Positions 3,799 to 46,887 of a stretch of 64,000 nt of DNA are shown in pieces. The translations under genes and the position numbers were made by a program. This DNA comes from a virus. The stretch covers positions 154,056 through 218,055 of the IMG/VR virus record IMGVR_UViG_3300036766_002289. The stretch is one strand, 5' to 3'. The notes below the pieces were generated by a model. That model made no database searches and was not told the DNA's origin. It worked only from the letters and a program-made list of their open reading frames with translations. Each line of letters starts with the position of its first letter. The first letter of the stretch is position 1.

Positions 3799-5103
3799 AT
3801 GGGGACGCGAGGAAAAAGGAAAATTAGTCGTTATTGTGATTTTTGTTCAAGGTCAGAAGATGAGGCAGGACGCTTGGTGGAAGGTCCAGGTGGTCCTAAT
3901 CATGGGAAAATGGAAGGTGAATTTACATCCTACATCTGTGGGAAATGTCTGGATGCCTGTACACGGCTTCTACAAACCAAACCTGTTATCCATACCCCTA
4001 CCAAAATCCCTAATCCAAAAGAATTGGTAGCCAAACTCAATCAACATGTCATCGGCCAAGATCGTGCCAAGAAAGTCTTAGCCGTTGCTGTGTCTAACCA
4101 CTATAAGCGACTGATCGACGAAGATTACGTAAGACAAACTAAGAATTCTTTAGACCCCCTTGATTCCGTCGTTATTGATAAGAGCAATATCCTTATGCTC
4201 GGGCCTACAGGTTGTGGTAAAACCTTATTGTGCCAAACCTTAGCAACCTTACTTGACGTTCCTTTTGCCATTGGTGACGCAACTACTTTGACGGAAGCAG
4301 GTTACGTTGGCGAAGACGTTGAAAACCTGTTGCTTCGTTTGATCCATGCTGCCGATTTTGATATTGAGAAGGCTCAAACTGGCATCATTTATATTGATGA
4401 AATTGATAAGATCGGCAAGACTAGCCAGAATGTCTCTATTACGCGAGATGTTTCTGGTGAAGGTGTTCAGCAAGCCTTACTTAAGATGCTTGAAGGAACA
4501 ATTGCCAACGTACCACCAACTGGTGGCCGTAAGCATCCTGAGCAACAGTACTTGCAAATTGACACTACTAATATCTTATTCATCTGTGGTGGTGCGTTCG
4601 TTGGGCTGGAAGATATTGTGGGGCAAAGACTTGGGAAGAAAAGCATTGGATTCGGTGTTACCCTAGAAGATCATGATTACGATGAGAAAAAGAAGCGTGA
4701 TTGGTTACTGGCTCGCACAACTCCAGATGATTTGATTCATTTTGGGTTAATTCCTGAATTGGTAGGACGTATGCCAGTTATTGCCCCATTGAACGAATTG
4801 AATGAAGAGTCTTTGATTAAGGTTCTTACTGAGCCTAAGAGCGCATTGCTCAAGCAATATGCTAAGTTGTTTCGCTATAACAACGCAAAGCTCGAATTCT
4901 CGGAAGGGGCAATTCGAGAAATTGCAAAAAAAGCTATCAAGCTTAATACTGGTGCCAGAGCATTACGTGGGGTCGTTGAAGACTTAATGCTTGAATGGCA
5001 GTATGAATTGGAAGATGGTAAGGGGCAGACTTACATTGTTACTGAGGAAGTAGTCAAGGGCGAAAAACCTTTGGTGGCCGAAGCAACTAAGGAAGCTGCA
5101 TAG
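3799..5103 (+). CDS. clpX: ATP-dependent Clp protease ATP-binding subunit ClpX
   Basis: 434 aa, full length. Zinc-binding domain with CDFC and CGKC (residues 13-50). Walker A GPTGCGKT near residue 135, pore loop GYVG, Walker B IYIDEID, RKH loop in GGRKHPEQ, and sensor 2 GARALRG. The ClpP-docking IGF tripeptide is present at residues 283-285 (SIGFG). All machine parts known in cellular ClpX are intact, so it should unfold proteins and can probably feed host ClpP. No clpP is seen here. AAGGAG precedes the start. The stop codon UAG is the first base triplet of a repeated 17-nt element. Confidence 0.95.
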
Positions 5104-5117
5104 CTTAGTTGTACCAG
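5101..5117 (+). repeat. TAGCTTAGTTGTACCAG element, copy 1
   Basis: Exact 17-nt element starting with the UAG stop of clpX. Four more copies lie at 26271, 44794, 45631 and 48186, all at stop codons. Confidence 0.9.
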
Positions 5118-5123
5118 TGAATC

Positions 5124-5229
5124 TTGCATTGGCTTGGGTACAAACGGTTTATGGTATAGGGCGAAAGCCTACCGTTCTAGTGGCTGTAAACGCTAGATAT
5201 TGCACTTAGGCCAATGCAATTTTTATTTT
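5124..5229 (+). ncRNA. structured RNA element between clpX and a phosphoesterase gene
   Basis: A closing helix pairs TTGCATTGGC (5124-5133) perfectly with 5210-5219 and can extend by five more wobble-rich pairs. Inside are two hairpins: ACGGT/ACCGT (5144-5148/5171-5175) capped by GGGC-GAAA-GCCT with a GNRA tetraloop, and CTAGTG/CGCTAG (5177-5182/5191-5196). A T-rich run follows, then the GGAG of the next gene. It could be a riboswitch, an mRNA processing or decay element, or a complex terminator. No known class was recognised. Confidence 0.65.
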
Positions 5230-5239
5230 GGAGTTTACT

Positions 5240-5896
5240 ATGAAGATTTGTGCTATTTCTGACCAGCACGGCAATTTGCCAAAAATTCCTTCTTGCGACC
5301 TTTTCCTTATCGCAGGCGATATTTGTCCAGCCACCAACCATAGTGTAGATTTTCAGGAATATTGGTTAGAAACCCAATTCAAGAATTGGTTAAAGGATGT
5401 TGATGCCAAGGAAAAGGTTTATATCTGCGGCAACCATGATTTCTTTTTCGAGAAAGCTTCAAAAAATAGGATTCAAAAAGCTTTAGAGAAGATTCCTGGT
5501 ATTTACCTTCAAGACTCTAGCACAGAATTTGATGGCTTAAATATTTACGGAACACCTTGGCAACCATACTTTTTCGATTGGGCATTTAACCTTTATGAGA
5601 ATGATTTAAAGAAAAAATGGGAATTAATTCCTAAGAACACTGATGTTCTTATTGTGCATGGTCCGCCTAGCACCTACGGTGATTATGCACCGCGTCCAAA
5701 AGGTAAAGGTGGGGAGCATACAGGTTCGCCTTCTCTACTGGGAAAAATTAAGGAAATTGAGCCGAAGCTCTGCGTTTTCGGTCACATCCACGAGGGACGT
5801 GGAGAGTGGGACTTAGACAAAACTAAGTTGGCCAATGTTACCATCTTAGATGGTAAGTATCAGATGGTTCATGAACCCTGGATTTACAACTTATAA
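5240..5896 (+). CDS. calcineurin-like metallophosphoesterase
   Basis: 218 aa. Metal motifs in order: DQHG (variant of DxH), GDIC, GNHD, VHGPP and GHIHEGRG, as in small bacterial and eukaryotic MPPED-type phosphodiesterases. The substrate is unknown. GGAG 7 nt upstream fixes the start at 5240. It follows the structured RNA, which may control it. Confidence 0.85.
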   Translation: MKICAISDQHGNLPKIPSCDLFLIAGDICPATNHSVDFQEYWLETQFKNWLKDVDAKEKVYICGNHDFFFEKASKNRIQKALEKIPGIYLQDSSTEFDGLNIYGTPWQPYFFDWAFNLYENDLKKKWELIPKNTDVLIVHGPPSTYGDYAPRPKGKGGEHTGSPSLLGKIKEIEPKLCVFGHIHEGRGEWDLDKTKLANVTILDGKYQMVHEPWIYNL

Positions 5897-5897
5897 T

Positions 5898-6209
5898 ATG
5901 CCACTTTTATTTGTCCATGAATGTCATAATACCATTCTCAAAGGATCATTAGTCTCAAAAGCTAATACCTTTCCACGTTATAGAATGTATGATTATCATG
6001 GTAGTCCAGTTTTGAAAGAAGAGAAATCTGGCACTGCCATTTATGGGGAATTATGGTTTGTGCATAACTTTGATGACCTAGATCGGTTTGAGTCAAATAT
6101 TTATAAGCGAGAGTTGATATTTTTAGAAAACCCCTGTGTGTTTGCTTATGCATATCTATTTAACCAGTCTGTTGAAGGGCTGTTAGAACATGGACACCAA
6201 ATTAACTGA
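5898..6209 (+). CDS. gamma-glutamylcyclotransferase (AIG2)-like protein
   Basis: 103 aa. The core pattern AIYGELWFVHNFDDLDRFE and the following Y-x-R (YKREL) match the GGCT/AIG2 fold. The usual first strand with the YGTL loop is altered to FVHECHN, so catalytic ability is uncertain. It starts 1 nt after the previous stop. The 3' end overlaps the sigma factor gene by 20 nt. Confidence 0.65.
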   Translation: MPLLFVHECHNTILKGSLVSKANTFPRYRMYDYHGSPVLKEEKSGTAIYGELWFVHNFDDLDRFESNIYKRELIFLENPCVFAYAYLFNQSVEGLLEHGHQIN

Positions 6210-7017
6210 AAGACAGTTGGAATATATTTGGCATATAAAGGATTTTGATTCCGCTCGTAAAACAAAAATTATAATGGGCGAGATGCCAGATTACGAACTC
6301 TATCTTGCTGCCAAGCAGAAACTTCATAACAGGAAAACTCCTTATGAATATAGCTTCATGAATATAGAACCGCTATTATCGAGGGAACAAGAACAGCACT
6401 TATTCCGTCAGTACAATTACTTAAAGTATAAGTACAAGCAATCTACTGAGGAAGAGATTAAAACGATCTTAGACAAGATTAAGGTTGTCAGAGACATTCT
6501 GACGTATGCTAATACTAGGTTGGTAATTACTGTTCTTAAAAAGCAAAAATATATAGATTTTGAAATTGCTTTGAGTGACGGAATCTATGGCCTCGTTGAT
6601 GCAATTGACTTATTTGATTTCCGTAAAGGTATTAAATTTAGCACTTATGCGTATTGGGCCATTATGAGTAAAATAAGAACTTTTAGTCAAATAGAACTTG
6701 GCGAAAAGATTCACATCACTAGTAATCAGGACATAGCTTTAGAAGATAGTCCAGATGAAGAGTGTAACGACGTTGAGCATAACGAAAATTGCAGGATTGT
6801 TGATGACATTCTTTCTACTCTTGCAGAGCGAGAGAAAATGATAATTACTTATTATTATGGCCTGAAGAATGTACGAAGATTAGGACTGCGAGAAATTAGT
6901 AAACGATTCAAAATTAGCAAAGAAAGAGTGAGGCAGATTAAGGACGCTGGACTCCATAAGCTCAAACTAACGGAGTTAAGAAAATATGAAGAAAAAAGGC
7001 TATCATTACATACTTGA
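6190..7017 (+). CDS. RNA polymerase sigma70-family factor
   Basis: 275 aa. Region 1.2-like segment LSREEQEQHLFRQYNYLKYK-type sequence near residues 60-78, region 2 with DGIYGLVDAIDLFDFRKG and FSTYAYWAIMSKI (about 125-160), and a clear region 4 helix-turn-helix ISKRFKISKERVRQIKDAG (about 235-253). Region 3 is short. It should redirect host RNA polymerase. The wording of region 1.2 resembles planctomycete sigma factors (weak host hint). The 3' end overlaps the next gene by 32 nt. Confidence 0.92.
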   Translation: MDTKLTERQLEYIWHIKDFDSARKTKIIMGEMPDYELYLAAKQKLHNRKTPYEYSFMNIEPLLSREQEQHLFRQYNYLKYKYKQSTEEEIKTILDKIKVVRDILTYANTRLVITVLKKQKYIDFEIALSDGIYGLVDAIDLFDFRKGIKFSTYAYWAIMSKIRTFSQIELGEKIHITSNQDIALEDSPDEECNDVEHNENCRIVDDILSTLAEREKMIITYYYGLKNVRRLGLREISKRFKISKERVRQIKDAGLHKLKLTELRKYEEKRLSLHT

Positions 7018-7896: not shown

Positions 7897-9528
7897 ATGG
7901 CTAAATTAGAAAAGAACGAGTATCCCCGTAATTCTTCGGCAGATGATTTTCAGTGTTTTGGACCGCCAGCAACAGAAGACGGTCAGTTTGACACATGTAA
8001 AATCGCTGACCTTGGCTGCTTTACCCAAGACGGTAAAGACAGTAATAAGTATTACCATGCTGCTGTAGTTCAGCATAAAAAGACTAAAGCATGGTTTGTA
8101 TATTTTCAATGGGGTCGCACAGGAGCAACCAATCCCACATTTCAATTCGTTGAATGTGGTGGCGAATCCGATGCACAACGCACTTTTGCCGCACAACTCC
8201 ATGATAAAAACGATAAACGTGGTCAATGGACTACTGTAGCTGGAATCCGCACGCTTCAAGCCAAACCTAATAAGGATTGTTATCTAGTCCGTGCTATGGC
8301 AACTCGTTCAGTCGGCTTACCAGACGCTAAAACCATTAAGGTTAATGAAGGTGCAAAAGTTACTGCCGCACCTACCAGCAAATCTGATTCAAAGATTGAC
8401 AATCATACATTGCGTTTAATGCGGGACTTGAACGTGGCAACAGTGTCTTATACTCGTGGTGTTATGGCAGATGATTCTCTACCTACACAAAAGTCTATTG
8501 ATGAAGCACGTCAGATTCTCCAAGAAGCGCAGAAGCGACTTGTGGTTGTTGGTAACAACGTAAATCATCAAGTAGCCGATAGTGATTTGAATCAACTCAC
8601 AAGGCTGATGTATAGCCGTATTCCTAAGAAAAAGGCTTTACATTGTGCGGCTCATGAGTGGATTCTGAATAAGGACAATATTTTTTCTTGGACGGCGGAC
8701 TTAGACGCATTCGAATCAGCCCTTTACGTAACTGACATTGAAGATTCCAAGCAGACTGAAGATGTGTTTGCTGGTATGCCAATTACTATGGAATGGGTCG
8801 ATCCCACTTCTATTGCTGGAAAATTTGCATATAATTGGTGGCCGAAAGCAACTGCAAATCGGCACGGTGGTCTTGGTAAGATGACAATTAAAAATCTTTG
8901 GCGTGTCCAACGCCGTGGCGATGGGCACGGTGGTCTTGGTAAGATGACAATTAAAAATCTTTGGCGTGTCCAACGCCGTGGCGATGACACGAAGCTTTAT
9001 AGCTGCCAAGATTCGGTATTAAAGGAAAAACCTTCTATTAAGGAACGTCCTTTATTCCAACCCGAACGTTCCGATTTGCAGGACAATTCATTGATTAAGA
9101 AGTATACGGACACCAATACTTCTCTTCTATTTCATGGCACTCGCTCCGTTAATGTTCCTGGTATTCTTCGTGAAAACCTACGTCTTCCAAAGCAATTGGT
9201 TGGTGTTGTTATCACTGGTGCCATGTTCGGTCCTGGTATTTATTGGGCTGACGATTGGAAAAAGAGCGCTGGTTACACCTCATTAAGGGGTTCTTATTGG
9301 TCGTCTGGTGATGGAAGTGTCAAGAATCGTGACGCCTTCATGTTTGCTGGCGATGTTGTTCTTGGTAATCCTTATGTAGCACCATATTCTGGTGGTTATA
9401 CGTCACCTCCTAAAGGTCATCATAGTGTCTATGGTAAGGCTGGAAAGAGTGGCGTTCAGAATAATGAATTCATTATTTACGATACTAAACAGTATCAGCT
9501 TCGTTATTTAATCGAATTTGCAGCATAA
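7897..9528 (+). CDS. PARP-type ADP-ribosyltransferase with WGR domain
   Basis: 543 aa. WGR domain with YFQWGRTGA (about residues 70-78), a helical regulatory region (about 165-300), and the PARP catalytic domain from about 330. The H-Y-E triad is present: H413 in FHGTR, Y449 in GIYWAD, E524 in QNNEFIIY, so poly- or mono-ADP-ribosylation using NAD+ is expected. Residues about 322-363 hold a perfect 21-aa tandem duplication covering the first strand of the catalytic domain. Eraser genes lie at 12692, 32361 and 52390. Its own promoter precedes it. Confidence 0.93.
   Translation: MAKLEKNEYPRNSSADDFQCFGPPATEDGQFDTCKIADLGCFTQDGKDSNKYYHAAVVQHKKTKAWFVYFQWGRTGATNPTFQFVECGGESDAQRTFAAQLHDKNDKRGQWTTVAGIRTLQAKPNKDCYLVRAMATRSVGLPDAKTIKVNEGAKVTAAPTSKSDSKIDNHTLRLMRDLNVATVSYTRGVMADDSLPTQKSIDEARQILQEAQKRLVVVGNNVNHQVADSDLNQLTRLMYSRIPKKKALHCAAHEWILNKDNIFSWTADLDAFESALYVTDIEDSKQTEDVFAGMPITMEWVDPTSIAGKFAYNWWPKATANRHGGLGKMTIKNLWRVQRRGDGHGGLGKMTIKNLWRVQRRGDDTKLYSCQDSVLKEKPSIKERPLFQPERSDLQDNSLIKKYTDTNTSLLFHGTRSVNVPGILRENLRLPKQLVGVVITGAMFGPGIYWADDWKKSAGYTSLRGSYWSSGDGSVKNRDAFMFAGDVVLGNPYVAPYSGGYTSPPKGHHSVYGKAGKSGVQNNEFIIYDTKQYQLRYLIEFAA
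8861..8986 (+). repeat. perfect 63-bp tandem duplication inside the PARP gene
   Basis: Units 8861-8923 and 8924-8986 are identical at every base and keep the reading frame. The encoded unit includes KNLWRVQRRGD, which normally occurs once in PARP catalytic domains. Confidence 0.97.
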
Positions 9529-12691: not shown

Positions 12692-13675
12692 ATGATTACC
12701 AGAGATAAAGTTCGTGGTATGTTCTTAGGCGTTGCCATTGGGGATTCTTTTGGAATGCCTTTCGAAAGCAAGAAGTTTGAAGATGTTAAAGCCCTAAAAA
12801 GAACTAATACTTATCGAAGTAGTAATCGTGGTAAGAAGGGCAGTTGGACTGACGATACACAATTAACGATTGCTACAGCATTGGCCATGCTTGAATCAGG
12901 TGATTTCAACATGGACAACATTGCTGCTTGGCATGTCAAAGCTTATAAAGCTTCGACTTCAGGGTGGGGAGGCACGACTAGGGATGCTGTTAAAAAACTC
13001 TCTGAAGGAACACATTGGTCAGAATCTGGTAAATTTGTAGGACAAAATAATAGGGGATTTGGCAATGGTGTAGTGATGAAAGCAGCACCATTAGCTGCAT
13101 ACTTTGCTCTTGCCAATGACGACTTGGATTATGACAATTCCATTTGTGATTTTACAATGATGACCCACCAAACAAGTGTGGCTGTTAGTTCTTGTTATGC
13201 CCATGTAGAAGCTCTAATGTATTGTTTGCGAGAAACAATTGATAGCTTCCGCAGTAGAGAATTTATTGAGGCGATAGTGGAGTCCAGTACGATTGGTGCC
13301 GCTTATTTCCCAGAAACTTTCAAGGATGATATAACCACTAAGTTAGAATCTATAAGAGAAATATACAGTATTCCAGATTTACTTTTTGATGACGGTTATT
13401 TAGTCAGCGAATTTGGCGGCGGTTCTTGTTATGTTTATGATTCTTTACCATTTTCTTATGCATTTTTCCTACGTGGTCCATTCAGTATTGAGAGCATGTA
13501 TGATGTTGCATATGCTGGCGGTGACTCTGATACAAATGCCTCCATCGTTGCAAGCATGATCGGCGCAATCTGTGGAACGAAAGTTTTCCCAAAAACTCTG
13601 GTAGAAGGATTATCTGCAAAAAATCAAATTTTGAGAATAGCCGACCTGTTTTATGAAAAGTTCTTTACAAATTGA
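12692..13675 (+). CDS. ADP-ribosylglycohydrolase (ADPRH/DraG family), copy 1
   Basis: 327 aa. Metal-binding motifs GSWTDDTQL (about residue 50) and YAGGDSDTNASI (about 275) supply the dinuclear Mg ligands of the family. It hydrolyses ADP-ribose from proteins or small molecules. It lies 3.2 kb downstream of the PARP gene on the same strand. A second copy is at 32361; the two are divergent. Confidence 0.9.
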   Translation: MITRDKVRGMFLGVAIGDSFGMPFESKKFEDVKALKRTNTYRSSNRGKKGSWTDDTQLTIATALAMLESGDFNMDNIAAWHVKAYKASTSGWGGTTRDAVKKLSEGTHWSESGKFVGQNNRGFGNGVVMKAAPLAAYFALANDDLDYDNSICDFTMMTHQTSVAVSSCYAHVEALMYCLRETIDSFRSREFIEAIVESSTIGAAYFPETFKDDITTKLESIREIYSIPDLLFDDGYLVSEFGGGSCYVYDSLPFSYAFFLRGPFSIESMYDVAYAGGDSDTNASIVASMIGAICGTKVFPKTLVEGLSAKNQILRIADLFYEKFFTN

Positions 13676-16457: not shown

Positions 16458-16530
16458 GCTCTTGTAGCTCAATGGGAGAGCGACGAACTCTAAATTCGAT
16501 TGGTTGAGGGTTCGAATCCCTCCAAGAGCG
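16458..16530 (+). tRNA. suppressor tRNA, anticodon CUA (reads UAG)
   Basis: 73 nt. Acceptor stem GCTCTTG (16458-16464) pairs fully with CAAGAGC (16523-16529); discriminator G. D-arm GCTC-AATGGGA-GAGC, T-arm GAGGG-TTCGAAT-CCCTC. The anticodon stem CGAA/TTCG encloses the loop CTCTAAA, with U33, anticodon CUA (16490-16492) and A37; the outermost pair 27-43 is A-A. CCA is not encoded. The amino acid is unknown; G73 fits several, including Gln. Confidence 0.87.
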
Positions 16531-36166: not shown

Positions 36167-36439
36167 ATGGGTGGCCGTTGCAGGTATCCGTGCAATAAAA
36201 TAAAACATACAGATATATTTATGGCCAAATTACATCTGGATTTTTTGCTCAACAAAAATCCAGATCATAAAATGGCAATCTACATCTGTGAAGAATGTGG
36301 TGCCAAAGATGGGGTTGAAGTATGGCACGTTGGCCATATAAGAAAAAATGGTACTGTATACGCAAAAACTCCAGATGGTAAAAGAATGTTGAAAAAAGTT
36401 ATGATCGACCACGAAAATATGTCGAGCTATCTGTTATGA
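36167..36439 (+). CDS. small zinc-finger-like protein
   Basis: 90 aa. CRYPC near the N-terminus and ICEECGAKDG may form a metal site; a His-rich VWHVGHIRK and KVMIDHENMSS follow, partly HNH-like but too short to call. ATGA overlap with the next gene. Confidence 0.5.
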   Translation: MGGRCRYPCNKIKHTDIFMAKLHLDFLLNKNPDHKMAIYICEECGAKDGVEVWHVGHIRKNGTVYAKTPDGKRMLKKVMIDHENMSSYLL

Positions 36440-36897
36440 ATATAACTCAGATTAGGATGGTTTTAAGAAAAATAGCCAAATGTTATGGTGCAAGGTATAA
36501 AATGTTAGAGCAAAAAGGCTGGGACTCTGCTGGTGGCTATCACACTCACAAAAATTTAATACTTATAAACAAAAAATATTTATCTCATCCATCAATAATA
36601 ATATCAACTATATTCCATGAATTAGGGCATCGTTACTGTATTTTAAATAACAAATTCGCAGTGTATCATAAACGACCTAAAAAGATATCCTTTAATCACT
36701 TAAAGAAAATAGCTGCAATTGCACTTAGAGCAGAATTGTATGTTGACAAATGGGGCGAAAAAGAATTTAATAAATGGTTAGCTGAAAGCGGGCACGTCAA
36801 TGACCTTTACTATTGTCGGTCTTATCAGTCAGTAATCGACAGAGATTGGCTTAAAAATTTTTATCAACAACAATTAAATAAATTCATTAATATATAA
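36436..36897 (+). CDS. zincin-like metallopeptidase
   Basis: 153 aa. Zinc motif FHELGHRYC (HExxH, about residue 56) and a downstream ALRAELYVDKWG with a possible third ligand. Resembles small phage and ImmA/IrrE-like zincins, but lacks a clear DNA-binding part. Target unknown. Confidence 0.7.
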   Translation: MNITQIRMVLRKIAKCYGARYKMLEQKGWDSAGGYHTHKNLILINKKYLSHPSIIISTIFHELGHRYCILNNKFAVYHKRPKKISFNHLKKIAAIALRAELYVDKWGEKEFNKWLAESGHVNDLYYCRSYQSVIDRDWLKNFYQQQLNKFINI

Positions 36898-36901
36898 CTT
36901 C

Positions 36902-37132
36902 ATGTTGGAACAAGGTGAGATTTTTGTAGTTTTCTTTCATGATGCTGGTATTCGAAGTAACAATTATCTGCACTTCATTCAAGACTGTTTTACTAATGTC
37001 CTTATTACAGGCGTTAGCGTTAAATTTGATGGACCAGTAGATACAATTCTGTTTTTAACCGTTTCACTCGCAGGCACTACTTTACTTGAAGCAAAAGTCA
37101 CTGCGTTTGGTGGGACTGTAATGATTGCTTAA
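36902..37132 (+). CDS. small hypothetical protein
   Basis: 76 aa, mainly beta with hydrophobic strands (ILFLTVSLAGTTLL). No ribosome-binding site and no family recognised. Confidence 0.45.
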   Translation: MLEQGEIFVVFFHDAGIRSNNYLHFIQDCFTNVLITGVSVKFDGPVDTILFLTVSLAGTTLLEAKVTAFGGTVMIA

Positions 37133-37171
37133 TAATTCTTTGGTTATATCTAAATAGTTCGGAGGATAAGT

Positions 37172-37321
37172 TTGCCGAATTGTGAAGAACCTATCTTAGA
37201 TTTTAGACATTTAGAAGAAGAAGACGTGGAAAATCTCATACATATTGTTAGCAGAATTTGTGAGGACTTATTAGATAAAAACATTACCATTGTAATAAAA
37301 GTAGGCACGTATGAATACTAG
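37172..37321 (+). CDS. small acidic protein with TTG start
   Basis: 49 aa from TTG 37172, chosen because CGGAGGA lies 6 nt upstream and no ATG is available. Acidic with a helical middle (LEEEDVENLIHIVSRI). Its end overlaps the ATG of the next gene. Confidence 0.5.
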   Translation: MPNCEEPILDFRHLEEEDVENLIHIVSRICEDLLDKNITIVIKVGTYEY

Positions 37322-37505
37322 TTTGTGCAATTGTTGCAAAGGATATCTAGAAGAAGACTGTATTACCTGTGACTGTGGCTTATATTGGTGTTCGCCGCGT
37401 TGTGCTAGAAATGAAGGATATAAACGAACCAAGAAAAAGTCTTCCTGCAACCACTGTAGACATGTTAATATAAACGACCATTTTCTTTTTGAGAAGAAAA
37501 AATGA
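37311..37505 (+). CDS. small Cys-rich zinc-finger protein
   Basis: 64 aa with CNCCKG, CDCG, WCSPRCARN and CNHCRH, enough for two zinc sites, like MYND or HIT-type fingers. Followed in ATGA overlap by the pyruvyltransferase-like gene. Confidence 0.6.
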   Translation: MNTSLCNCCKGYLEEDCITCDCGLYWCSPRCARNEGYKRTKKKSSCNHCRHVNINDHFLFEKKK

Positions 37506-38473
37506 AAGAAATACATGTGTTAGGCTGGTATGATACCCCTACTAGCGAGACCTTGAAATGCAATATAGGCGACGAAGCCTATAAACTCGCATTCCCAAAA
37601 CTCTTCCCTAATAATCAGTTCATTTTTTGCGACACCCTTAAAGACCTTGACCCCGAAATTGTGATTCTGGGTGGTGGTGATGTTCTCTACCCATCCTTCA
37701 TTAATAAGATTAAAGCAAGTAAAGCTAGGAAAAAATACGCTTTTTCAATTAATGTAACTCCTGACATAGAACCAATATTCGACCGAGTAATTTCTAGAAA
37801 CCGATTAAACAATTTCGAATATCTCCCAGACTTTGTATTTGCGCTAGAAGGTAATAAAGATCACGGTAAGGCCATTATCAAAAGACTATTTGACCAGAAT
37901 AGATGTGAATTATATGAAAATGTTGTCATATTGGTAATGAATAGTTTTCTATGCACAAGAGAAAACACTTTAGCAAGAGATAAAGTTAATTTTGAAAAGG
38001 TATGTTTCGAATTAGCCTTAATTATGGATACAACACCCGCTAGTTTTATTTTACTACCTTTCGGTAATGGATTCCCACATAACGATAAAGTAACAAATGC
38101 TTGTGTCTACTCTAAATGCAAACACTGGAAAAAGAACTTATTAGTGTTTGATTCACTGAGCGTTCAAGAAACATTAGACGTATTTGCGGGTGCAGATGCC
38201 TCTATAAATACCAGATTGCACTCCAATATATTCAGTTGTATATCGGGCATCCCTTTCATTGATATAGGGCATCATGACAAAACCAGGATGTTCATGGAGT
38301 CTGTCAATAAACTTAAATGGAGATTTAATTATTGGCATTTCCCATTTGGAGAAATAAAAAATCTACTAAATGCCTTCCTTAGTAATAAAGAACTCTATAA
38401 AAATGAATCTGCACAAATAAACATCAATAACAAGAAACTTCTAGGACAATTAAGCGTGAATTTTGATATATAA
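37502..38473 (+). CDS. polysaccharide pyruvyltransferase-family protein
   Basis: 323 aa. NIGDEAYKLAFPKLFP, EIVILGGGDVLYP, and the C-terminal INTRLHSNIFSCISGIPFI are the hallmarks of PF04230 (GT-B-like fold). Members add pyruvate ketals or act near glycan synthesis. Could modify surface polysaccharide to block other phages; inference. Confidence 0.8.
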   Translation: MKEIHVLGWYDTPTSETLKCNIGDEAYKLAFPKLFPNNQFIFCDTLKDLDPEIVILGGGDVLYPSFINKIKASKARKKYAFSINVTPDIEPIFDRVISRNRLNNFEYLPDFVFALEGNKDHGKAIIKRLFDQNRCELYENVVILVMNSFLCTRENTLARDKVNFEKVCFELALIMDTTPASFILLPFGNGFPHNDKVTNACVYSKCKHWKKNLLVFDSLSVQETLDVFAGADASINTRLHSNIFSCISGIPFIDIGHHDKTRMFMESVNKLKWRFNYWHFPFGEIKNLLNAFLSNKELYKNESAQININNKKLLGQLSVNFDI

Positions 38474-38476
38474 TTC

Positions 38477-39109
38477 ATGCGATTCAGCGACTGGTTATTA
38501 AAAGAAGAAGCACCACAGGTAACAACCGTAAAAGGCACTCCTGATAATTTCTACTTGGTTTTCAATAATGGCCAACAAAGTGGCAAAGTCAATAACATCG
38601 TGGCCGTTCCTGGTAATCCAGGTATGTATCAAATTAAAAGCCAAGATCAAATGAATCCCTATTCAGTCAGCATGAGTCCACAAATTGGTCAAAAATTAAT
38701 CAGCTTTTCATGGAAACAACAGCCAAAACCCAATATGCAAAAAATATTGGCTTGGCCTACTCCCACTATCCCACAACCACCTCCATATTGGACCCCAGAA
38801 ATGATGGAAATGAACCATGACAATGCTGGTAAGTACATATCCAATAAGCTTTTACAACAAGGAATGGAAGCAAAGAAAGCTGGGATTATAGGAAATAAGA
38901 TATCTGAATTTATATTTTACTATAGTCCATATCCACCTAGAGTTAAGAACAGGGTATTAATGAACTTAGGCAATAAGTATCCTGATGCGGATACAATGGA
39001 GTTGATTAAGGTTGCGGATGAACATGCAAAGCAGGCTGAGCCTTACTTTAGGATGTTAAAGGCAAAGGGCTACGTTTCTGCTTTACAAAGTCCCAAACCA
39101 GTAGTATAA
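38477..39109 (+). CDS. hypothetical protein with capsid-targeting-like N-terminus
   Basis: 210 aa. Starts MRFSDWLLKEEAP, matching the pattern aromatic-x2-Trp-hydrophobic-x-x-Glu shared with 12193 and 61837. N-terminal half beta-rich with a Pro-rich linker (TPTIPQPPPYW), C-terminal half helical. Possibly a virion protein. Confidence 0.55.
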   Translation: MRFSDWLLKEEAPQVTTVKGTPDNFYLVFNNGQQSGKVNNIVAVPGNPGMYQIKSQDQMNPYSVSMSPQIGQKLISFSWKQQPKPNMQKILAWPTPTIPQPPPYWTPEMMEMNHDNAGKYISNKLLQQGMEAKKAGIIGNKISEFIFYYSPYPPRVKNRVLMNLGNKYPDADTMELIKVADEHAKQAEPYFRMLKAKGYVSALQSPKPVV

Positions 39110-39116
39110 TATTTGG

Positions 39117-39326
39117 ATGATAATCTACAGCGAAGATGGCGACATTTGGGAAGCCATGATTTGGATTGAGCGTGAAGTTTATATTGGTATGGGTCAATCC
39201 AAAGAAAAAGCTAAAATTGCTTTACTTGAGCATCTTAAAGGTATCAGGCCAATTTATTTGGAACAAATTAGAAATGCTCAAGAAATTATTGGCAAAATTG
39301 AGGAACTTATTCATGAATCAGTGTGA
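39117..39326 (+). CDS. small hypothetical protein
   Basis: 69 aa. Strand pair then a long helix (KEKAKIALLEHLKGI), a HicB-like or DUF-type small fold but without firm match. Overlaps the next gene by 14 nt. Confidence 0.5.
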   Translation: MIIYSEDGDIWEAMIWIEREVYIGMGQSKEKAKIALLEHLKGIRPIYLEQIRNAQEIIGKIEELIHESV

Positions 39327-39780
39327 TCTTTGTGACAAGCCTACGCCTATAAGCTCCTATTTCTGTGATGAATGTGGTAAGATTTGCCGAAGAAGTAAAA
39401 ATAAGGCTCAGCCTGACGTATATTGTGGCAAGCCTGCTGCTTGGGGTAGTTGTGGATTCTGTCAAGAACACTGGCAGGAGGAATGTAACGAAATTGACAC
39501 TGTGATGGAGTTTGCTGATGATGCATTCCATGCAGGAGAGTTTGATAAGGTTAATAACCGTTTAAAGGAACTTAATGTGCCTAACTTGAGTTCCCAGATG
39601 TGTGTGACATGGCTCACTGTGAGTAAGTGGGCAGAAAAAAACCTTCCATATAGGCCAGAATTCTTCAAGAAGTGTTATGACAGATTAGTAGAAATTCGTG
39701 GCGTTGAAGCAGCTAATAAGTTGACAAAGTATCGTGGCGTGGATGAAGAAATTCAAAAAATGCTTAAGGGAATAGAATGA
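39313..39780 (+). CDS. hypothetical protein with N-terminal zinc fingers
   Basis: 155 aa. CDLCDKP, CDECGKICRR and GSCGFCQEHW (about residues 4-60) form two probable zinc sites, then a helical domain. GAGG upstream supports 39313. Function unknown. Confidence 0.65.
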   Translation: MNQCDLCDKPTPISSYFCDECGKICRRSKNKAQPDVYCGKPAAWGSCGFCQEHWQEECNEIDTVMEFADDAFHAGEFDKVNNRLKELNVPNLSSQMCVTWLTVSKWAEKNLPYRPEFFKKCYDRLVEIRGVEAANKLTKYRGVDEEIQKMLKGIE

Positions 39781-39977
39781 AAACACCGTGGGCCGAACAC
39801 TATAGACATTGTGAGCAATGTAATCAGGCAACAGAAGTCCGACTTGCCGAAGCAAAAGATATTTATGATCCAGTTGGCGGTGCAAAGATGTTAAGAAACT
39901 GTTGTCCAGAAGGACGAAGGTTATGTATAGAGTCTAGTGAAAAAAGTACTCCACCTGACAGTATCACAATATATTAA
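39777..39977 (+). CDS. small zinc-finger-like protein
   Basis: 66 aa with HCEQCNQ and NCCPEGRRLC. ATGA overlap with the previous gene. Its leader TTAAGGGAATAGAATGA is repeated before the next gene. Confidence 0.55.
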   Translation: MKTPWAEHYRHCEQCNQATEVRLAEAKDIYDPVGGAKMLRNCCPEGRRLCIESSEKSTPPDSITIY

Positions 39978-39986
39978 GGGAATAGA

Positions 39987-40127
39987 ATGAGACTTCTTGG
40001 GCATTTATTCATGTGGAGTCTTGCTGCATTGCATCTGTTTATAGCAGAATGTGAACGGCAAAAAGAAAGAACCGCATTGGCGGTTATAATGCTTACTATA
40101 TTCACCTTGTCTATGCTATTATTCTAA
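39987..40127 (+). CDS. small two-helix membrane protein
   Basis: 46 aa with hydrophobic segments at about 2-20 and 30-46. TTAAGGGAATAG precedes the ATG. Confidence 0.5.
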   Translation: MRLLGHLFMWSLAALHLFIAECERQKERTALAVIMLTIFTLSMLLF

Positions 40128-40135
40128 GGAAACTT

Positions 40136-40444
40136 GTGATTAATTATAATGTAGATGATGTTAAGTGGTTGTTAAATAAGATTTTATATCTTGAAGAACA
40201 AAAGAATGCCCACCCATCTAATTGGCCAACCCACAGAAGAATCTGGCTGGGTTGTTATGATGTTTGGATGTGTGAACAAGACAGAATTGATGCTGTTGAA
40301 ATTCCAAAGATGCGAATGAAAGAAGCGGAAGAAGCTGGGTTCATTAAGAATGAAATAAGGAAAATAGGAAAATTTGATTCCGTGGTTTGGACGGTGACAG
40401 AACTCGGCCACGATTTTTTGAAAGAGGAAACTTGTGATGGTTGA
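40136..40444 (+). CDS. hypothetical protein
   Basis: 102 aa from GTG with AAGGAAACTT upstream. Alpha/beta pattern reminiscent of a small winged helix (KMRMKEAEEAGFIKNEI, VVWTVTELGHDFL). Overlaps the next gene by 11 nt. Confidence 0.55.
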   Translation: MINYNVDDVKWLLNKILYLEEQKNAHPSNWPTHRRIWLGCYDVWMCEQDRIDAVEIPKMRMKEAEEAGFIKNEIRKIGKFDSVVWTVTELGHDFLKEETCDG

Positions 40445-40736
40445 AAGTCGTGTTAAAACAGAATTTAAGGTAAGAAAACTTGAATTCAATATGGGTTTAA
40501 ATGACCCCGTTGACATGCGTTGTGGTGGACCTGCATCCTTGGCTTTTTGGGTGTATTCCTCATTATCAGAAGAACATTTGCAATGTATTGCAGAAGACAC
40601 CGAAGTTCAAAAAATAGTAAGGCAGCATGGTGGTGATGGAAGTTTTAATATAGCTAACTCAGTTTGGACTGAAAAATTTTGCCATACAGAAAACGAAGTT
40701 AAAGAAAACTTATTTAAACTCGCAAAACAATTCTAA
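40434..40736 (+). CDS. hypothetical protein
   Basis: 100 aa from GTG 40434, or ATG 40437, with AGAGGAAACTT upstream. Helical, with RCGGPASLAFWVYSSLS. Not recognised. Confidence 0.55.
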   Translation: MMVESRVKTEFKVRKLEFNMGLNDPVDMRCGGPASLAFWVYSSLSEEHLQCIAEDTEVQKIVRQHGGDGSFNIANSVWTEKFCHTENEVKENLFKLAKQF

Positions 40737-40747
40737 AAGGAAAGTTT

Positions 40748-40987
40748 GTGATGGAATGTAAATTAGAATGGAAGAAAAATTTCTATCCAGAATCTGTGAT
40801 GAAGTCTTTGAGCTATGGCTGTTATAACGAAGCATGTTTTGAATGTGCATCAGTAGATGGTGTCGAAGGTCGTTACGTCAATGAGGGAGTGTGTCCTATA
40901 CACGGCATTGTGTGTTCTATGTTAGGCGGTGTGTGGGACACAAATAGACCCGCACATCCCTGTGGAGCCTATAAAGAAAGTTTGTGA
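40748..40987 (+). CDS. small cysteine-containing protein
   Basis: 79 aa. CYNEACFECASV and CPIHGIVCSM suggest a zinc site. AAAGGAAAGTTT precedes GTG, the third use of this initiation context. Confidence 0.55.
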   Translation: MMECKLEWKKNFYPESVMKSLSYGCYNEACFECASVDGVEGRYVNEGVCPIHGIVCSMLGGVWDTNRPAHPCGAYKESL

Positions 40988-41006
40988 TGAATGTCAAAGG
41001 TAATCT

Positions 41007-41768
41007 ATGGACAGAAAACAATACAATAAGGAATATAGAGAAAAAAGAATAAATCAAGGGCTCTGTGTCGGTTGCGGCTTCCCTAATAATGGAAAAAATC
41101 TATGCCAGGAATGTTTGGACAAAGCAACGGCTAAAAGAAAAGAAAATATTTTAAAAAGGTTATGTGGATGTGGCAAGCCTAGAAGAGATGGATATCAATC
41201 ATGTGAAATTTGCTCAAATAAATATAACAAAAATGAATACAACAAAAATAAAAGATTAATATCTTTGCAAAGGAAAAGTAAAAGAAATAAAAATAAAGAA
41301 AAAGGACTATGTGTTTTTTGCACTAAGCCTGCATTGCCCGATAAGACCACATGCGAATATCATTTGCAAAAAAGAACAAACTTTAGAAAGCATTGTAGGG
41401 AAAAAGGAATTTGTCCTCAATGTGGAGAATTGAAGTCTAATCCAAAAAATACTTATTGTGATGAACACCAATCTCATTGGAAAATTCGCAAACATGCTGA
41501 GGGACTTCGAATCAAAAAAGAAGTAATAAATTATTACAATGAACTATCTCAATGTGTATGTTGTGGGGAATCAAATTTGGTCTTTTTGACAATCGACCAT
41601 ATGGACAACAATGGTGCCGAACACCGAAAAAAAATTAATCGTTTTGGCGAAGGATTTTACAGATGGCTTATAAGCAATAATTTCCCAAATGGTTATCAAG
41701 TCTTATGTTTCAATTGTAATTGTGGTAGAAAGATTAATGGTGGTATATGTCCTCACAAAATATTTTAG
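41007..41768 (+). CDS. HNH-type homing nuclease with multiple zinc ribbons
   Basis: 253 aa. Four Cys-pair modules (CVGCG, CGCGKP, CVFCTKP, CPQCGEL; residues about 19-145) come before the core CVCCGESNLVFLTIDHMDNNG and CFNCNCGRK (about 185-245), the pattern of phage HNH enzymes. It is inserted between an unknown gene and RNA ligase 1, overlapping the ligase start by 22 nt. Confidence 0.82.
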   Translation: MDRKQYNKEYREKRINQGLCVGCGFPNNGKNLCQECLDKATAKRKENILKRLCGCGKPRRDGYQSCEICSNKYNKNEYNKNKRLISLQRKSKRNKNKEKGLCVFCTKPALPDKTTCEYHLQKRTNFRKHCREKGICPQCGELKSNPKNTYCDEHQSHWKIRKHAEGLRIKKEVINYYNELSQCVCCGESNLVFLTIDHMDNNGAEHRKKINRFGEGFYRWLISNNFPNGYQVLCFNCNCGRKINGGICPHKIF

Positions 41769-42475
41769 AAAAACTCATTGATTTCCCCAGGATTTTCCAT
41801 CTCCCGCATAAGCCTAATGCACAAAGAAGCGACCTTATTGCATCACAAGAAGATGTGAAGGTTATTTTCGATAACGAAGAAACCATCGTTGAAGAAAAGC
41901 TTGACGCTGCAAACTCAGGAATACTTTTTAGTGAAGAAGGTAATTTTTCAATTCGAAATAGAAATAATATTCTAAATAAAGGCAAAACTGGCCATCTGCG
42001 AGGCCCTGCTAAAATGCAATTTGCTCCAATTTATAATTGGGCTTACGAAAATAGAGATAAGTTTGAAACGCTTAATAATAATTTAGGATTTGAAGTAAGT
42101 GTATTTGGGGAATGGATGGTGGCACTTCATGGGGTTAAGTATGACAAACTACCATCTTGGTTCATTCCTTATGAATTATATGATTGGGAACATAAGAAAT
42201 TTATTTCTCACAAAATTGTTAGAAAATCTTTGCAGGAAGCAGGTTTTGTGACAGTGCCGTTATTGCATGAAGGACGATTGCCTAATTGGGAGATTTTTGA
42301 TAAGTTTTGTGCAGAAAAGAGTCCCTATTCAACAACAGATTTAAGGGAAGGTGTGGTTGTGAAGGTGTCAGATGAGAAATATTTGACTCACAGATTCAAG
42401 ATGGTTCGTAGGGGTTTTATACAGGGTTGCCACTGGAATGAACGTGCATTAACTAAGAATAAACTTTGTGATTGA
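41747..42475 (+). CDS. ATP-dependent RNA ligase, copy 1
   Basis: 242 aa. Nucleotidyltransferase motifs: TIVEEKLDAANSG (motif I KxD-A in place of the common KxDG), EVSVFGEWM (motif III), REGVVVKV (motif IV) and HRFKMVRRGF (motif V). Seals RNA breaks using ATP. The first 15 codons overlap the HNH gene. Confidence 0.82.
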   Translation: MSSQNILEKLIDFPRIFHLPHKPNAQRSDLIASQEDVKVIFDNEETIVEEKLDAANSGILFSEEGNFSIRNRNNILNKGKTGHLRGPAKMQFAPIYNWAYENRDKFETLNNNLGFEVSVFGEWMVALHGVKYDKLPSWFIPYELYDWEHKKFISHKIVRKSLQEAGFVTVPLLHEGRLPNWEIFDKFCAEKSPYSTTDLREGVVVKVSDEKYLTHRFKMVRRGFIQGCHWNERALTKNKLCD

Positions 42476-42734
42476 CATTATTTCACTTATTGACTCTGGT
42501 AAAATCCACCTTGGTATGACTAAGGCGGATTTACGTATTTTATTAGGCCCGCCGCATTGCTGGGGCAGTACTTCGCGTAAATACAGAGAGCCTTGTATAT
42601 GGAAGTATGATAATGTAGAATTTTGGTGGCTTACTAAGAAATATAGAGTGCCTTATCCAGGGCCACCGCTAACTGGTGTGATGAGCGACACTGAAAGTCA
42701 TGACAGCGAACATAAACTGCTATTAGGAGGCTGA
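42468..42734 (+). CDS. hypothetical protein
   Basis: 88 aa from GTG. LGMTKADLRILLGPPHCW and IWKYDNVEFWW follow the pattern of short bacterial proteins of SmpA-like or immunity type. Overlaps the ligase gene by 8 nt. Role unknown. Confidence 0.55.
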   Translation: MIDIISLIDSGKIHLGMTKADLRILLGPPHCWGSTSRKYREPCIWKYDNVEFWWLTKKYRVPYPGPPLTGVMSDTESHDSEHKLLLGG

Positions 42735-42735
42735 T

Positions 42736-43119
42736 ATGGGCATTAGTTGTGCGGGTCGTAATTCTGATGCGCGATATGATGAGCAAAAAGGTTTTAAGGG
42801 CGGTTATATACCGCCACCCAGTTCCAACCCAGAAAATTATGAAATTTTGAGAAGTCTACAGATGGGCAAATATCTGATTGTGGAGATTAAGTATCCTGAC
42901 TGCAAGAATTACGAAGGGAAAAAGATAATGGTCTATGAGGGAGATATTAAACAGTTGGTATCGCAAAAGAAAATTGACCCACATTTTTCTGATAATTGTG
43001 CTTTTAAGTCACCAATAGGACGCTTTGAACCGACAAATCGAGGGTGGAATATGGCCAAAACATTTTGTGCTGGGATGGCTGGTCAGACTATCAATTGGAC
43101 TGCGGAAGATTTCAAATGA
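42736..43119 (+). CDS. hypothetical phage protein
   Basis: 127 aa. KKIDPHFSDNCAFKSPIGRF and GWNMAKTF form a motif met in several phage and bacterial small proteins without assigned role. AGGAGG upstream. ATGA overlap with the next gene. Confidence 0.6.
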   Translation: MGISCAGRNSDARYDEQKGFKGGYIPPPSSNPENYEILRSLQMGKYLIVEIKYPDCKNYEGKKIMVYEGDIKQLVSQKKIDPHFSDNCAFKSPIGRFEPTNRGWNMAKTFCAGMAGQTINWTAEDFK

Positions 43120-43958
43120 TTAAACTAAGTAACGGGCATGAATTTAAATATTGTGCAGCATCAGGTGCATTAGGTTACGACGGAAAAGGATATTTTTGGG
43201 AAGCCCCTTTCCGATGGCTTAAAATACTACGCCCTGAAGAATTTACAATAATCACAAAAACCATTACCCTTGAACCACGAAAAGGAGAGTATCGTTGGTG
43301 GAAGCCTTGGAAGACTATTAAGATTAAAAATGATTACGTCATCAATGCAATGGGATTGCCAAATGATGGACTTAAATGGTGGTTGAAAAATGTTTATGGT
43401 AGATTAAACTATGATACAATTGTCTCAGTAGCCGCGTGGACTCCATTTGAAGCCAGAACAATAGCACATGAGCTTAACTATTGTGGTATCCAAGCCATTG
43501 AACTTAATCTTTCTTGCCCAAATGTAGAACATCCAGACAGTTTCCCTATAATCAAGGAGTTTTTGAAATTTACTAGGCATCCTGTGATATTGAAAATCGA
43601 ATATGATGAGGATTATATTGCCCTTTTAAAAGAATTTCATGGTAAGATTGAAGCCGTTGACGCAATTAATACTATCCCTTTTTATGATATGGCAGTAGGA
43701 CAATCTCCACTTCACCCATTAGAAGGTGGAATTAGTGGTCCATTAATTTCATTTAAATCAAAGAAAATTTTGCGTGATATTAAAGCCCATTATCCTGGTG
43801 TTCAGGTGATTAGTGGTGGTGGAATTTACACTCTTGAAGAGGCGAAACGCAGGATTGCTATGAAGGCAGATGCGATATCGTTTGGTACAGTTTTTCTTAA
43901 GAAATGTTGGTTGCCAAATTTAATAATTAAAAAGCTTGCCGAACATGATAGAAAATAA
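43116..43958 (+). CDS. dihydroorotate dehydrogenase-like flavoenzyme
   Basis: 280 aa. CAASGALGYDGKGYFWE, TKTITLEPRKG, NAMGLPNDG, AIELNLSCPNVE, DAINTIPF, GISGPLISFKSKKILRDI and VISGGGIYTLEEA follow class 1 DHODH order, including the FMN phosphate site. The catalytic base region LSCPN is kept. It would convert dihydroorotate to orotate or act on a related substrate. Full pathway not present here. Start by ATGA overlap. Confidence 0.82.
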   Translation: MIKLSNGHEFKYCAASGALGYDGKGYFWEAPFRWLKILRPEEFTIITKTITLEPRKGEYRWWKPWKTIKIKNDYVINAMGLPNDGLKWWLKNVYGRLNYDTIVSVAAWTPFEARTIAHELNYCGIQAIELNLSCPNVEHPDSFPIIKEFLKFTRHPVILKIEYDEDYIALLKEFHGKIEAVDAINTIPFYDMAVGQSPLHPLEGGISGPLISFKSKKILRDIKAHYPGVQVISGGGIYTLEEAKRRIAMKADAISFGTVFLKKCWLPNLIIKKLAEHDRK

Positions 43959-43979
43959 ATGCAATGCTTATATATTTAC

Positions 43980-44801
43980 ATGAAACAAAACTTAATTGGA
44001 AAAATTTATGGGTATCTTGAAGTAATTTCTTGCCTTGGTAGTGATCGTAATGGTAAAAAGGCCGCTGTGCATTGGATGTGTAGGTGCAAATGTGGCAATA
44101 CCGTTGCTGTAACCACTGCCAAACTTAATTTTGGTTTACGTAAAAGTTGCGGGTGTCTGAAAGTGGAAAAAGCGATAATAAATGGAAAAATAGGGAGTGA
44201 GAAGAATAAAACACATAATGGCACCTATACTCCAGAATATAAAACATGGACAATGATTAAAAGTAGATGTAATAATCCAAAATCAAGTGGCTACGAGAAT
44301 TATGGAGGAAGGGGTATTAAAATTTGTGAGAGATGGAACAACTCATTCCAGAACTTTTTAGATGATATGGGGAAGAAGCCAAATACAGATTTTTGCATTG
44401 ATAGAATAAATGTCAATGAAGGATATTACAAGGATAATTGCCAATGGACTAGTTTAAAATCTCAACAAAATAATAAAAGAACAAATATTTATATAGAATT
44501 TGGGGGCAATAAAGCAACGTTGGCAGAATGGGCCACCAAAATTGGAATATGCGGGGCCACTTTAAGAAAACGCATGAAGAATATGTCAATTGAAGACGCC
44601 CTAACATCGCCAAAGAAAATGGTGGGCCGCAGTCGTAAACTATCAACTGATATTAACTTGAATGCGGTTATTAAAAATTTAAATTTAGCATTAAATCAGA
44701 TTGGTAGAAATTGCCTTATTCAGCATTTTGGAGAAGCTGGTACTGATTTGGTGAATTCTATTAAGGTTTTATCCGAGTTAGTCGATGTAAACATAGCTTA
44801 G
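43980..44801 (+). CDS. HNH homing endonuclease with N-terminal zinc module
   Basis: 273 aa. N-terminal CRCKCGNTVAVTTAKL and KSCGCLK module, then the HNH core: YKTWTMIKSRCNNP, NYGGRGIKICERW, FCIDRINVNEGYYKDNCQW. A helix-turn-helix-like end follows (TLAEWATKIGICGATLRKRM). The stop UAG is supplied by repeat element copy 3. Confidence 0.87.
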   Translation: MKQNLIGKIYGYLEVISCLGSDRNGKKAAVHWMCRCKCGNTVAVTTAKLNFGLRKSCGCLKVEKAIINGKIGSEKNKTHNGTYTPEYKTWTMIKSRCNNPKSSGYENYGGRGIKICERWNNSFQNFLDDMGKKPNTDFCIDRINVNEGYYKDNCQWTSLKSQQNNKRTNIYIEFGGNKATLAEWATKIGICGATLRKRMKNMSIEDALTSPKKMVGRSRKLSTDINLNAVIKNLNLALNQIGRNCLIQHFGEAGTDLVNSIKVLSELVDVNIA

Positions 44802-44810
44802 TTGTACCAG
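44794..44810 (+). repeat. TAGCTTAGTTGTACCAG element, copy 3
   Basis: Exact copy. Its second TAG (44799) is the stop of the HNH gene. Read-through would enter the next gene in frame. The AGGAG of the next gene follows. Confidence 0.9.
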
Positions 44811-44819
44811 GAGACTCTC

Positions 44820-45041
44820 ATGCGCATGAAAATTGCTGCCATTTCTGCTTGTCTGAGTGGAATTTCCCTGATCTCGACCGTGGTTTTTATCCATAATCCG
44901 AATATCTTGCTTACTTGTATTTGGCTGGCATCATTATTCATGGGAATTACTACATTTTGTCTTTGGTTGGAATGTCGGAGTACCACAAGCCAACCGACAC
45001 GGCCGACAAGATCAACGTCGAGGGACTTGGAAGAAAAATGA
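44820..45041 (+). CDS. small two-helix membrane protein
   Basis: 73 aa with hydrophobic segments (about 4-25 and 30-50) and a Thr/Arg-rich tail. AGGAG upstream comes from the end of the repeat element. Confidence 0.6.
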   Translation: MRMKIAAISACLSGISLISTVVFIHNPNILLTCIWLASLFMGITTFCLWLECRSTTSQPTRPTRSTSRDLEEK

Positions 45042-45211
45042 CTGTACGCGAAGCATTACTTGAAGAATTAACTAATCTCTGGGCGTTAGAAGCCAGTCTT
45101 TGACCAGAAAATACTCTTCAGTGTCGTGAAGAGATTCGCTTGGTCGAAGCGAAATTGGATGAATGGGACAAACTTACTGCTGCTGTGGCAAAAGTATGCC
45201 TAAAGGAATGA
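45038..45211 (+). pseudogene. small coiled-coil gene with an in-frame UGA
   Basis: ATG 45038 (ATGA overlap with the previous stop) opens 21 codons, MTVREALLEELTNLWALEA..., then UGA at 45101-45103. The same frame continues for 35 codons with matching helical heptads (CREEIRLVEAKLDEWDKL) to TGA 45209. Read through, it is one 57-residue coiled coil. Nonsense mutation, base error or recoding. Confidence 0.5.
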
Positions 45212-45212
45212 A

Positions 45213-45638
45213 ATGATGAAAAAATGGTATGAAGAAGTTGTAATTAATGGCCTATTGCATCATAAGTTTCTTGCAAATGGTTTACTTTATTTAATGGATG
45301 ATTATAAAGTTACGCCACCGCTACCACAAATTTGCTATAACCACTACTGCCGTAAGGTTTTAGGGGAAGAATACCATTCCACAATGTTTGGAACAAGAGA
45401 AACTGGTTTTCCAGATTGCTGGTTATGCAATGAGTGTTGGGCAAAGTTTGATGGCCAAAAGATGAGGGGACGATTTGCGATGATCGGATACTCCCACAAT
45501 CAGAGTGTGTCTATATTAGCTGCCATTGAAAGAGATTGCGGGAAGGAATTATTTGAACTTGGTAGGCCAGAAGATGAATCTCGTTATACTGAATCTGTCA
45601 CCGAATGGGTTGAATGGCAAAATCCCTGGATAGCTTAG
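45213..45638 (+). CDS. hypothetical protein with zinc-finger motif
   Basis: 141 aa. CYNHYCRKVL and CWLCNECWAKFDG could bind zinc. AAGGA upstream. Stop UAG lies within repeat element copy 4. Confidence 0.6.
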   Translation: MMKKWYEEVVINGLLHHKFLANGLLYLMDDYKVTPPLPQICYNHYCRKVLGEEYHSTMFGTRETGFPDCWLCNECWAKFDGQKMRGRFAMIGYSHNQSVSILAAIERDCGKELFELGRPEDESRYTESVTEWVEWQNPWIA

Positions 45639-45645
45639 TTGTACC
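45631..45645 (+). repeat. TAGCTTAGTTGTACC element, copy 4 (last two bases differ)
   Basis: The first 15 bases are exact, then GA replaces AG. The second TAG (45636) is the stop codon of the preceding gene. It stands before the divergent sigma factor gene. Confidence 0.85.
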
Positions 45646-45684
45646 GATGTTGGCGTGAACAAATAATAGTTAAGAGGGCAAATC

Positions 45685-46698: not shown

Positions 46699-46707
46699 GG
46701 AGACAAT

Positions 46708-46887
46708 ATGGGTCTTCTACGGATGTTTTATCTTTGGATTGAAAAAATGCGAAAGCCTTCCTTGGAAGAAGACCTCGCATATATCCGCCAAAAAGAGGCT
46801 GAAAGACTTAAAAATCCACATGATCCAGATGCTTGCTTTTTTTGCACACTAAGGAAAGAACAACAAGCCAAAGAGGATTTAAAATGA
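46708..46887 (+). CDS. small hypothetical protein
   Basis: 59 aa, charged helices, CFFCTLRKEQ near the end. AAGGAG upstream. ATGA overlap with the next gene. Confidence 0.55.
   Translation: MGLLRMFYLWIEKMRKPSLEEDLAYIRQKEAERLKNPHDPDACFFCTLRKEQQAKEDLK

Follow-up and report, generated by a model that had tools for sequence, protein, structure and literature searches.

In phages such as T7, RNase III sites lie between genes. In terminator-type leader attenuators and riboswitches, an early hairpin and a terminator helix upstream of an operon exclude each other. A canonical intrinsic terminator has a stable stem with a short loop, placed behind a gene and followed immediately by a U-run. In the settings that one source quotes for TransTermHP, loops are limited to 3–13 nt and stem-loops to at most 59 nt (PMC12207403). 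For E. coli, the relevant passage of another source describes a terminator located only several bp behind a gene as almost fully repressed, with recovery as the distance grows (PMC4824070). For the halovirus HF2, promoter-carrying repeats at intergenic places of the genome are described, and their promoter activity was measured according to the cited excerpt (PMC8707807).

Here, a structured RNA predicted at positions 5124–5229 of a phage genome window, between clpX and a metallophosphoesterase gene, was compared with these systems. As in canonical intrinsic terminators, a stable stem stands behind a gene and is followed immediately by a U-run, but in place of a short loop the stem encloses 64 nt that form two hairpins, and a ribosome-binding site (RBS) comes directly after. 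A long stem between co-oriented genes is shared with T7-type RNase III sites, from which the stretch 5124–5219 differs by the T-run directly behind the stem; cleavage is hypothetical here. With terminator-type attenuators and riboswitches, the locus has in common an exclusive early hairpin and a terminator-like helix ahead of an operon; unlike in these systems, the early hairpin is at chance level, there is no known aptamer, and the nearest phosphoesterase relative is leaderless. The repeated element upstream of the RNA resembles the HF2 repeats of the cited excerpt (PMC8707807) in that similar repeats occupy intergenic places of one viral genome, whereas promoter activity, measured there in another virus and domain of life, is here only proposed. 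The structure is real and of unusual size, and it most likely serves an ordinary function.

Gene context

The window, i.e., the whole stretch of DNA analyzed, comprises 64 kb (bases 154056–218055 of a 390,039-base virus record), and the gene content of the record is phage-like. Positions refer to the window unless given as record positions; the features of the locus are listed in Table 1. The closest solved relative of the phosphoesterase is MPPED2. The window and the 595-kb phage LR756511 share a gene order in which an M50 peptidase gene precedes clpX and a phosphoesterase gene, a cyclotransferase-like gene and a sigma-factor gene follow it; the ClpX proteins of the two are 72% identical. The phosphoesterase ORF of LR756511 is clearly divergent in sequence, and an opposite-strand ORF intervenes there. 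Since no multisubunit RNA polymerase was detected in the phage (PF00562 search; 14 of 14 controls positive), transcription by the host polymerase is expected. A PF00940 search for a T7-type polymerase gave no match, and its control was likewise silent.

Table 1. Features of the clpX–phosphoesterase locus (window positions).
Feature	Position	Strand	Evidence or remark
clpX	3799..5103	+	upstream gene; NCBIfam ClpX equivalog E 5.6e-167
Repeated-element copy TAGCTTAGTTGTACCA	5101..5116	+	overlaps the stop codon of clpX; probable promoter or operator
Closing helix, 5' arm	5124..5139	+	pair probabilities 0.81–1.0
Inner hairpin 1	5144..5175	+	tip GGGC-GAAA-GCCU at 5159–5170; GNRA loop 5163–5166
Inner hairpin 2	5176..5197	+	7 bp (5176–5182/5191–5197), 8-nt loop; pair probabilities 0.82–1.0
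Closing helix, 3' arm	5204..5219	+	predicted fold
T-run TTTTTATTTT	5220..5229	+	directly behind closing helix; sequence
GGAG ribosome-binding site of phosphoesterase gene	5230..5233	+	sequence
Metallophosphoesterase (MPPED2-like)	5240..5896	+	Pfam Metallophos E 3e-11; PDB 3rl4 E 6e-30
Gamma-glutamylcyclotransferase-like gene	5898..6209	+	phrog_2520 E 8.5e-6; same apparent operon as phosphoesterase
Sigma-70-family factor	6190..7017	+	Pfam Sigma70_r4 E 6.8e-12; phrog_351 E 4.2e-24; same apparent operon as phosphoesterase

Predicted fold and its stability

The predicted structure spans the gap from the clpX stop codon to the RBS of the phosphoesterase gene, the ATG of which is at 5240, and ends in the T-run. 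The closing helix starts 21 nt past the stop codon and consists of 16 consecutive pairs, three of them G·U. A preliminary description had given it 10–15 bp; the helix is indeed present, at a slightly greater length. The two inner hairpins of that description, one with a GNRA loop (GAAA), were recovered in the fold, and the T-run followed by the GGAG of the next gene and the repeated element just upstream were read in the sequence at the places listed in Table 1. The lower stem of hairpin 1 is predicted in two registers (5144–5148 or 5151–5155 with 5171–5175) with a probability of about 0.5 each. The folding energy was −45.6 kcal/mol for the plus strand versus −30.9 kcal/mol for the minus strand. 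In folding of the growing transcript, the closing helix was the end state once its 3' arm had emerged.

None of 1000 dinucleotide shuffles was as stable as the stretches 5116–5229 (z −6.05) and 5124–5219 (z −5.49), and one of 200 shuffles equalled the larger stretch 5090–5240 (z −3.9). The interior alone (5140–5203) was mildly unusual (z −2.1; 32 of 1000 shuffles equally stable). Most of the significance of the fold comes from the long closing helix. Among the 96 stretches behind copies of the repeated element, the one at this locus was the most stable (z −5.1); at random places, z-scores of −3.5 or below were observed once in 200. In 190 kb of the genome, the locus ranked fourth by z-score among 91 intergenic gaps of at least 60 nt and fifth by bare stem among the 139 gaps with a length of 25 nt or more. 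With a bare-stem score of 37.5 in 64 kb, where the best stems of two shuffles scored 33 and 39, the stem is strong without being unique. The phage has several strong intergenic stems, and 5124–5219 stands out among them as large and branched.

Searches for known families and homologues

Rfam at gathering cut-offs yielded nothing at 5124–5229; the sole match in the window was a tRNA at 16458–16530. At a relaxed threshold, matches at the locus were at chance level. The two best were HIV_POL-1_SL, with 18 bits (cut-off 54; E 0.38), and PhotoRC-I, with 12.7 bits (cut-off 45); a known RNA family was rejected on these scores, which lie far below the cut-offs. The earlier statement that no known riboswitch or ribozyme class could be recognized holds at the relaxed threshold as well. 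A structured RNA without a known class was retained from the preliminary description, while the riboswitch or ribozyme at which it had hinted was not supported in view of the chance-level Rfam scores, the terminator make-up, the other hairpins in several of the nearest clpX relatives and the leaderless nearest phosphoesterase relative. Riboswitch or ribozyme readings of 5124–5229 have no support.

A second copy of the RNA was not found in the phage: a single-sequence covariance model matched only itself, and a sequence search of the record gave only partial matches, to the repeated element. Against 12 loci of relatives (nine of 41 clpX loci plus L005, L101 and L102), the model gave no match besides the reverse strand of the locus itself, a hit that an inverted repeat should give. 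Searches of the viral_contigs set with exact pieces of hairpin 1, the closing helix and hairpin 2 hit one, two and two contigs, respectively. All five were judged unrelated: two (L104, L105) overlap coding ORFs at the hit and lack a covariance-model match, and three (L053, L271, L272) were dismissed from their flanks. Homologues from which covariation could be read were found neither in the viral contigs, nor in the phage record, nor in the 12 loci of relatives.

The same place in related phages

Behind clpX, several near relatives carry hairpins that are unrelated to the 5124–5219 fold. In LR756511, the stem has 18 bp, closes a 4-nt loop, lacks a T-run and sits within a predicted opposite-strand ORF. 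The loci L060/L061 have a 13-bp stem without a T-run; in L195, 18 bp enclose a 23-nt loop, and the T-rich tail ATTTTTCTTC follows. When the non-redundant clpX ends were restricted to those of 54% identity or more (ten, window included), a subset chosen post hoc after inspection of the data, five had a stem score of at least 30. As a general rule, a strong hairpin behind phage clpX was rejected, with stems of that score at 7 of 80 clpX ends versus 27 of the 434 ORF ends used as controls (p 0.27). The 80 ends remained after near-duplicate removal from 88 distinct ends, derived from 124 loci with a match.

On the phosphoesterase side, upstream stretches were inspected at eight of 80 kept loci as well as in L101 and L102. 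In L106, which has the nearest phosphoesterase relative found (59%), the gene abuts the upstream reading frame and has no leader, which weakens a phosphoesterase riboswitch; a strong hairpin upstream of the more distant phosphoesterase of phage Tunturi_5 (L102) points the opposite way. The other hairpins behind near clpX relatives and the leaderless L106 favor a role at the transcript end over a ligand-sensing leader. On balance, this weak evidence suggests that the hairpin belongs with the clpX end rather than with the phosphoesterase start.

A possible branched terminator behind clpX

The reading that we prefer, although we give it slightly less than an even chance, is that 5124–5229 acts as an oversized, branched RNA resembling an intrinsic terminator, leaky enough for expression of the phosphoesterase/sigma operon. 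On leaving clpX, the host RNA polymerase would transcribe the two inner hairpins, which would fold at once and draw the arms of the closing helix together. The 16-bp helix would then shut as the polymerase arrives at the U-run, where a fraction of the polymerases would be released. The remaining polymerases would continue into the phosphoesterase/cyclotransferase-like/sigma operon, the RBS of which lies directly behind the U-run. Since a full stop at this position would silence the phosphoesterase gene, some read-through is expected. The analysis shows the sequence, the predicted fold with its stability beyond shuffles, the T-run, the gene order and ordinary terminator-like hairpins at other places of the phage; from these we infer termination, its partial nature and the host polymerase as its agent.

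In favor of termination we counted the T-run directly behind the stem, the stability of the fold relative to shuffles, the closing helix as the end state of transcript folding, the canonical sites of this phage and the expected host polymerase; the large size and the immediately following RBS were counted against it. The stems of the relatives count on both sides. The L195 stem with its T-rich tail, together with the stems of LR756511 and L060/L061, was counted in favor of termination; the missing T-runs of the LR756511 and L060/L061 hairpins and the lack of a general enrichment of strong stems behind phage clpX were counted against it. Canonical sites with a hairpin and a T-run occur elsewhere in the phage, at record 299409–299435 and 309408–309433 (the ORFs flanking the latter were placed on the minus strand by a crude ORF pick). 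At 869–910 of the window, a 17-bp hairpin between convergent ORFs has an A-run and a T-run side and is terminator-like both ways. In comparison, the stretch 5124–5219, with 64 nt inside the helix and 96 nt in total, is too large for a short hairpin. Since its size is beyond the usual limits, it was not classed as a canonical terminator, though it probably works like one. A terminator scan with loops of 3–8 nt in this analysis did not list 5124–5229. If it terminates transcription, phage terminators can hold a large branched insert and be missed by finders with short loop limits.

The repeated element upstream

The core of the element, TAGTTGTACCA, occurs 72 times in forward and twice in reverse orientation in the record, and a reversed control gave 0. 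With at most one mismatch, the oriented repeat TATAGCTTAGTTGTACCA was counted about 96 times forward versus three times reverse in 204 kb. It is dense at 284–316 kb of the 390-kb record and frequently overlaps the stop codon of the preceding ORF. In the divergent-ORF gap at record 293931–294020, copies face outward, and the tRNA genes at record 37457 and 299843 start 10 nt behind copies. The element is likely a promoter or operator. A relative carrying it was found neither in viral_contigs nor in genome_contigs; contigs with a match (eight viral, five genome) were rejected as homologues, having one exact match each, which was judged to be chance. LR756511 lacks the element: matches with at most one mismatch numbered five forward and one reverse, versus 11 and eight for the control.

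In four clear gaps (record 299391, 307075, 309345 and 314001), examples picked among the strongest stems of the phage, a terminator-like hairpin precedes the element; at the locus studied here, the order is reversed. A preferential position of terminators before the element was not established (7 of 92 elements versus 2 of 92 downstream; 2.6, maximum 8, for random and 4.8, maximum 13, for shifted positions). With the element in first place, a short terminated RNA or an attenuator is conceivable. Separately, an inverted pair of elements forms a long hairpin at L038 18046–18093 (record 314046–314093), directly behind a canonical hairpin and T-run site.

Alternative explanations

An RNA-processing or mRNA-stability stem between cistrons, e.g., an RNase III site, is an unlikely alternative to termination, though the best placed of those considered. 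It would account for the length of the double-stranded stem and its place between genes of the same orientation, for the stems without T-runs at the same place in related phages, and for other long stems of this kind between co-oriented ORFs (record 146098–146155 and 296767–296813). However, the T-run directly behind the helix would be superfluous for a processing site.

We also consider it unlikely that the locus is a short non-coding RNA gene, in which the element at 5101–5116 would be the promoter, transcription would start at about 5117–5124 and end in the U-run to give a compact RNA of about 105 nt, and the phosphoesterase would be expressed via read-through. The element lies 8 nt ahead of the structure, the two tRNA genes mentioned above follow copies at a distance of 10 nt, and the terminator-like part comes after the element here while terminators precede it in the four clear gaps. 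Yet the promoter role of the element is itself only probable, neither a second copy nor a homologue was found, and the terminator-before-element order has no statistical backing.

Rather improbable is a regulated attenuator or riboswitch-type leader of the phosphoesterase–sigma operon, in which a protein, ligand or ribosome would decide between an early hairpin (5109–5115/5137–5143) and the closing helix. The two are mutually exclusive, the early hairpin dominates the minimum free energy folds of the growing transcript until about 5207–5213, and findpath gave a barrier of 10.8 kcal/mol. Against this, the early hairpin (5109–5143) did not exceed chance, with 59 of 1000 shuffles equally stable, Rfam gave no match, and L106 is leaderless. 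A leader peptide was rejected, since the 30-codon GTG frame at 5117–5209 has no RBS.

Still less probable is a functionless chance fold in the spacer: similar stem scores turn up in shuffled 64-kb sequence and neither conservation nor a homologue was seen, but the whole fold is more stable than 1000 of 1000 shuffles, occupies the gap from stop codon to RBS and ends in a T-run. A combined scheme, in which a phage-wide promoter element would drive a compact, branched non-coding transcript of some 105 nt, released by the closing helix and U-run, with the 5' hairpin tuning read-through into the sigma operon as a timing switch, is very improbable.

An attenuator or small RNA would act on the phage sigma-factor operon and might provide a timing step in huge-phage infection; otherwise, 5124–5229 would be an ordinary gene-boundary signal.

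Further observations in the phage genome

Perfect or near-perfect intergenic stems of 21–24 bp without a T-run are present at L044 6098–6155 (record 146098–146155) and L038 767–813 (record 296767–296813). The stem sequence TGCACAAAGG is common to two intergenic hairpins 24 kb apart, at L042 8517–8553 (record 246517–246553) and L043 15017–15053 (record 271017–271053).

A cluster of 28 tRNA genes was predicted by ARAGORN at L040 2400–13118 (record 36400–47118). At L038 5962–6457 (record 301962–302457), an apparent partial tRNA-Leu is followed by a possible HNH-type endonuclease stretch and then by tRNA-Leu(TAA) in full length; the first two of these were assigned by reading the sequence by eye. 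In the window, the phage encodes a WGR-PARP-type ADP-ribosyltransferase and an ADP-ribosylglycohydrolase (7897–9528 and 12692–13675), and the ADP-ribosyltransferase gene contains an internal repeat near 8908–8986.
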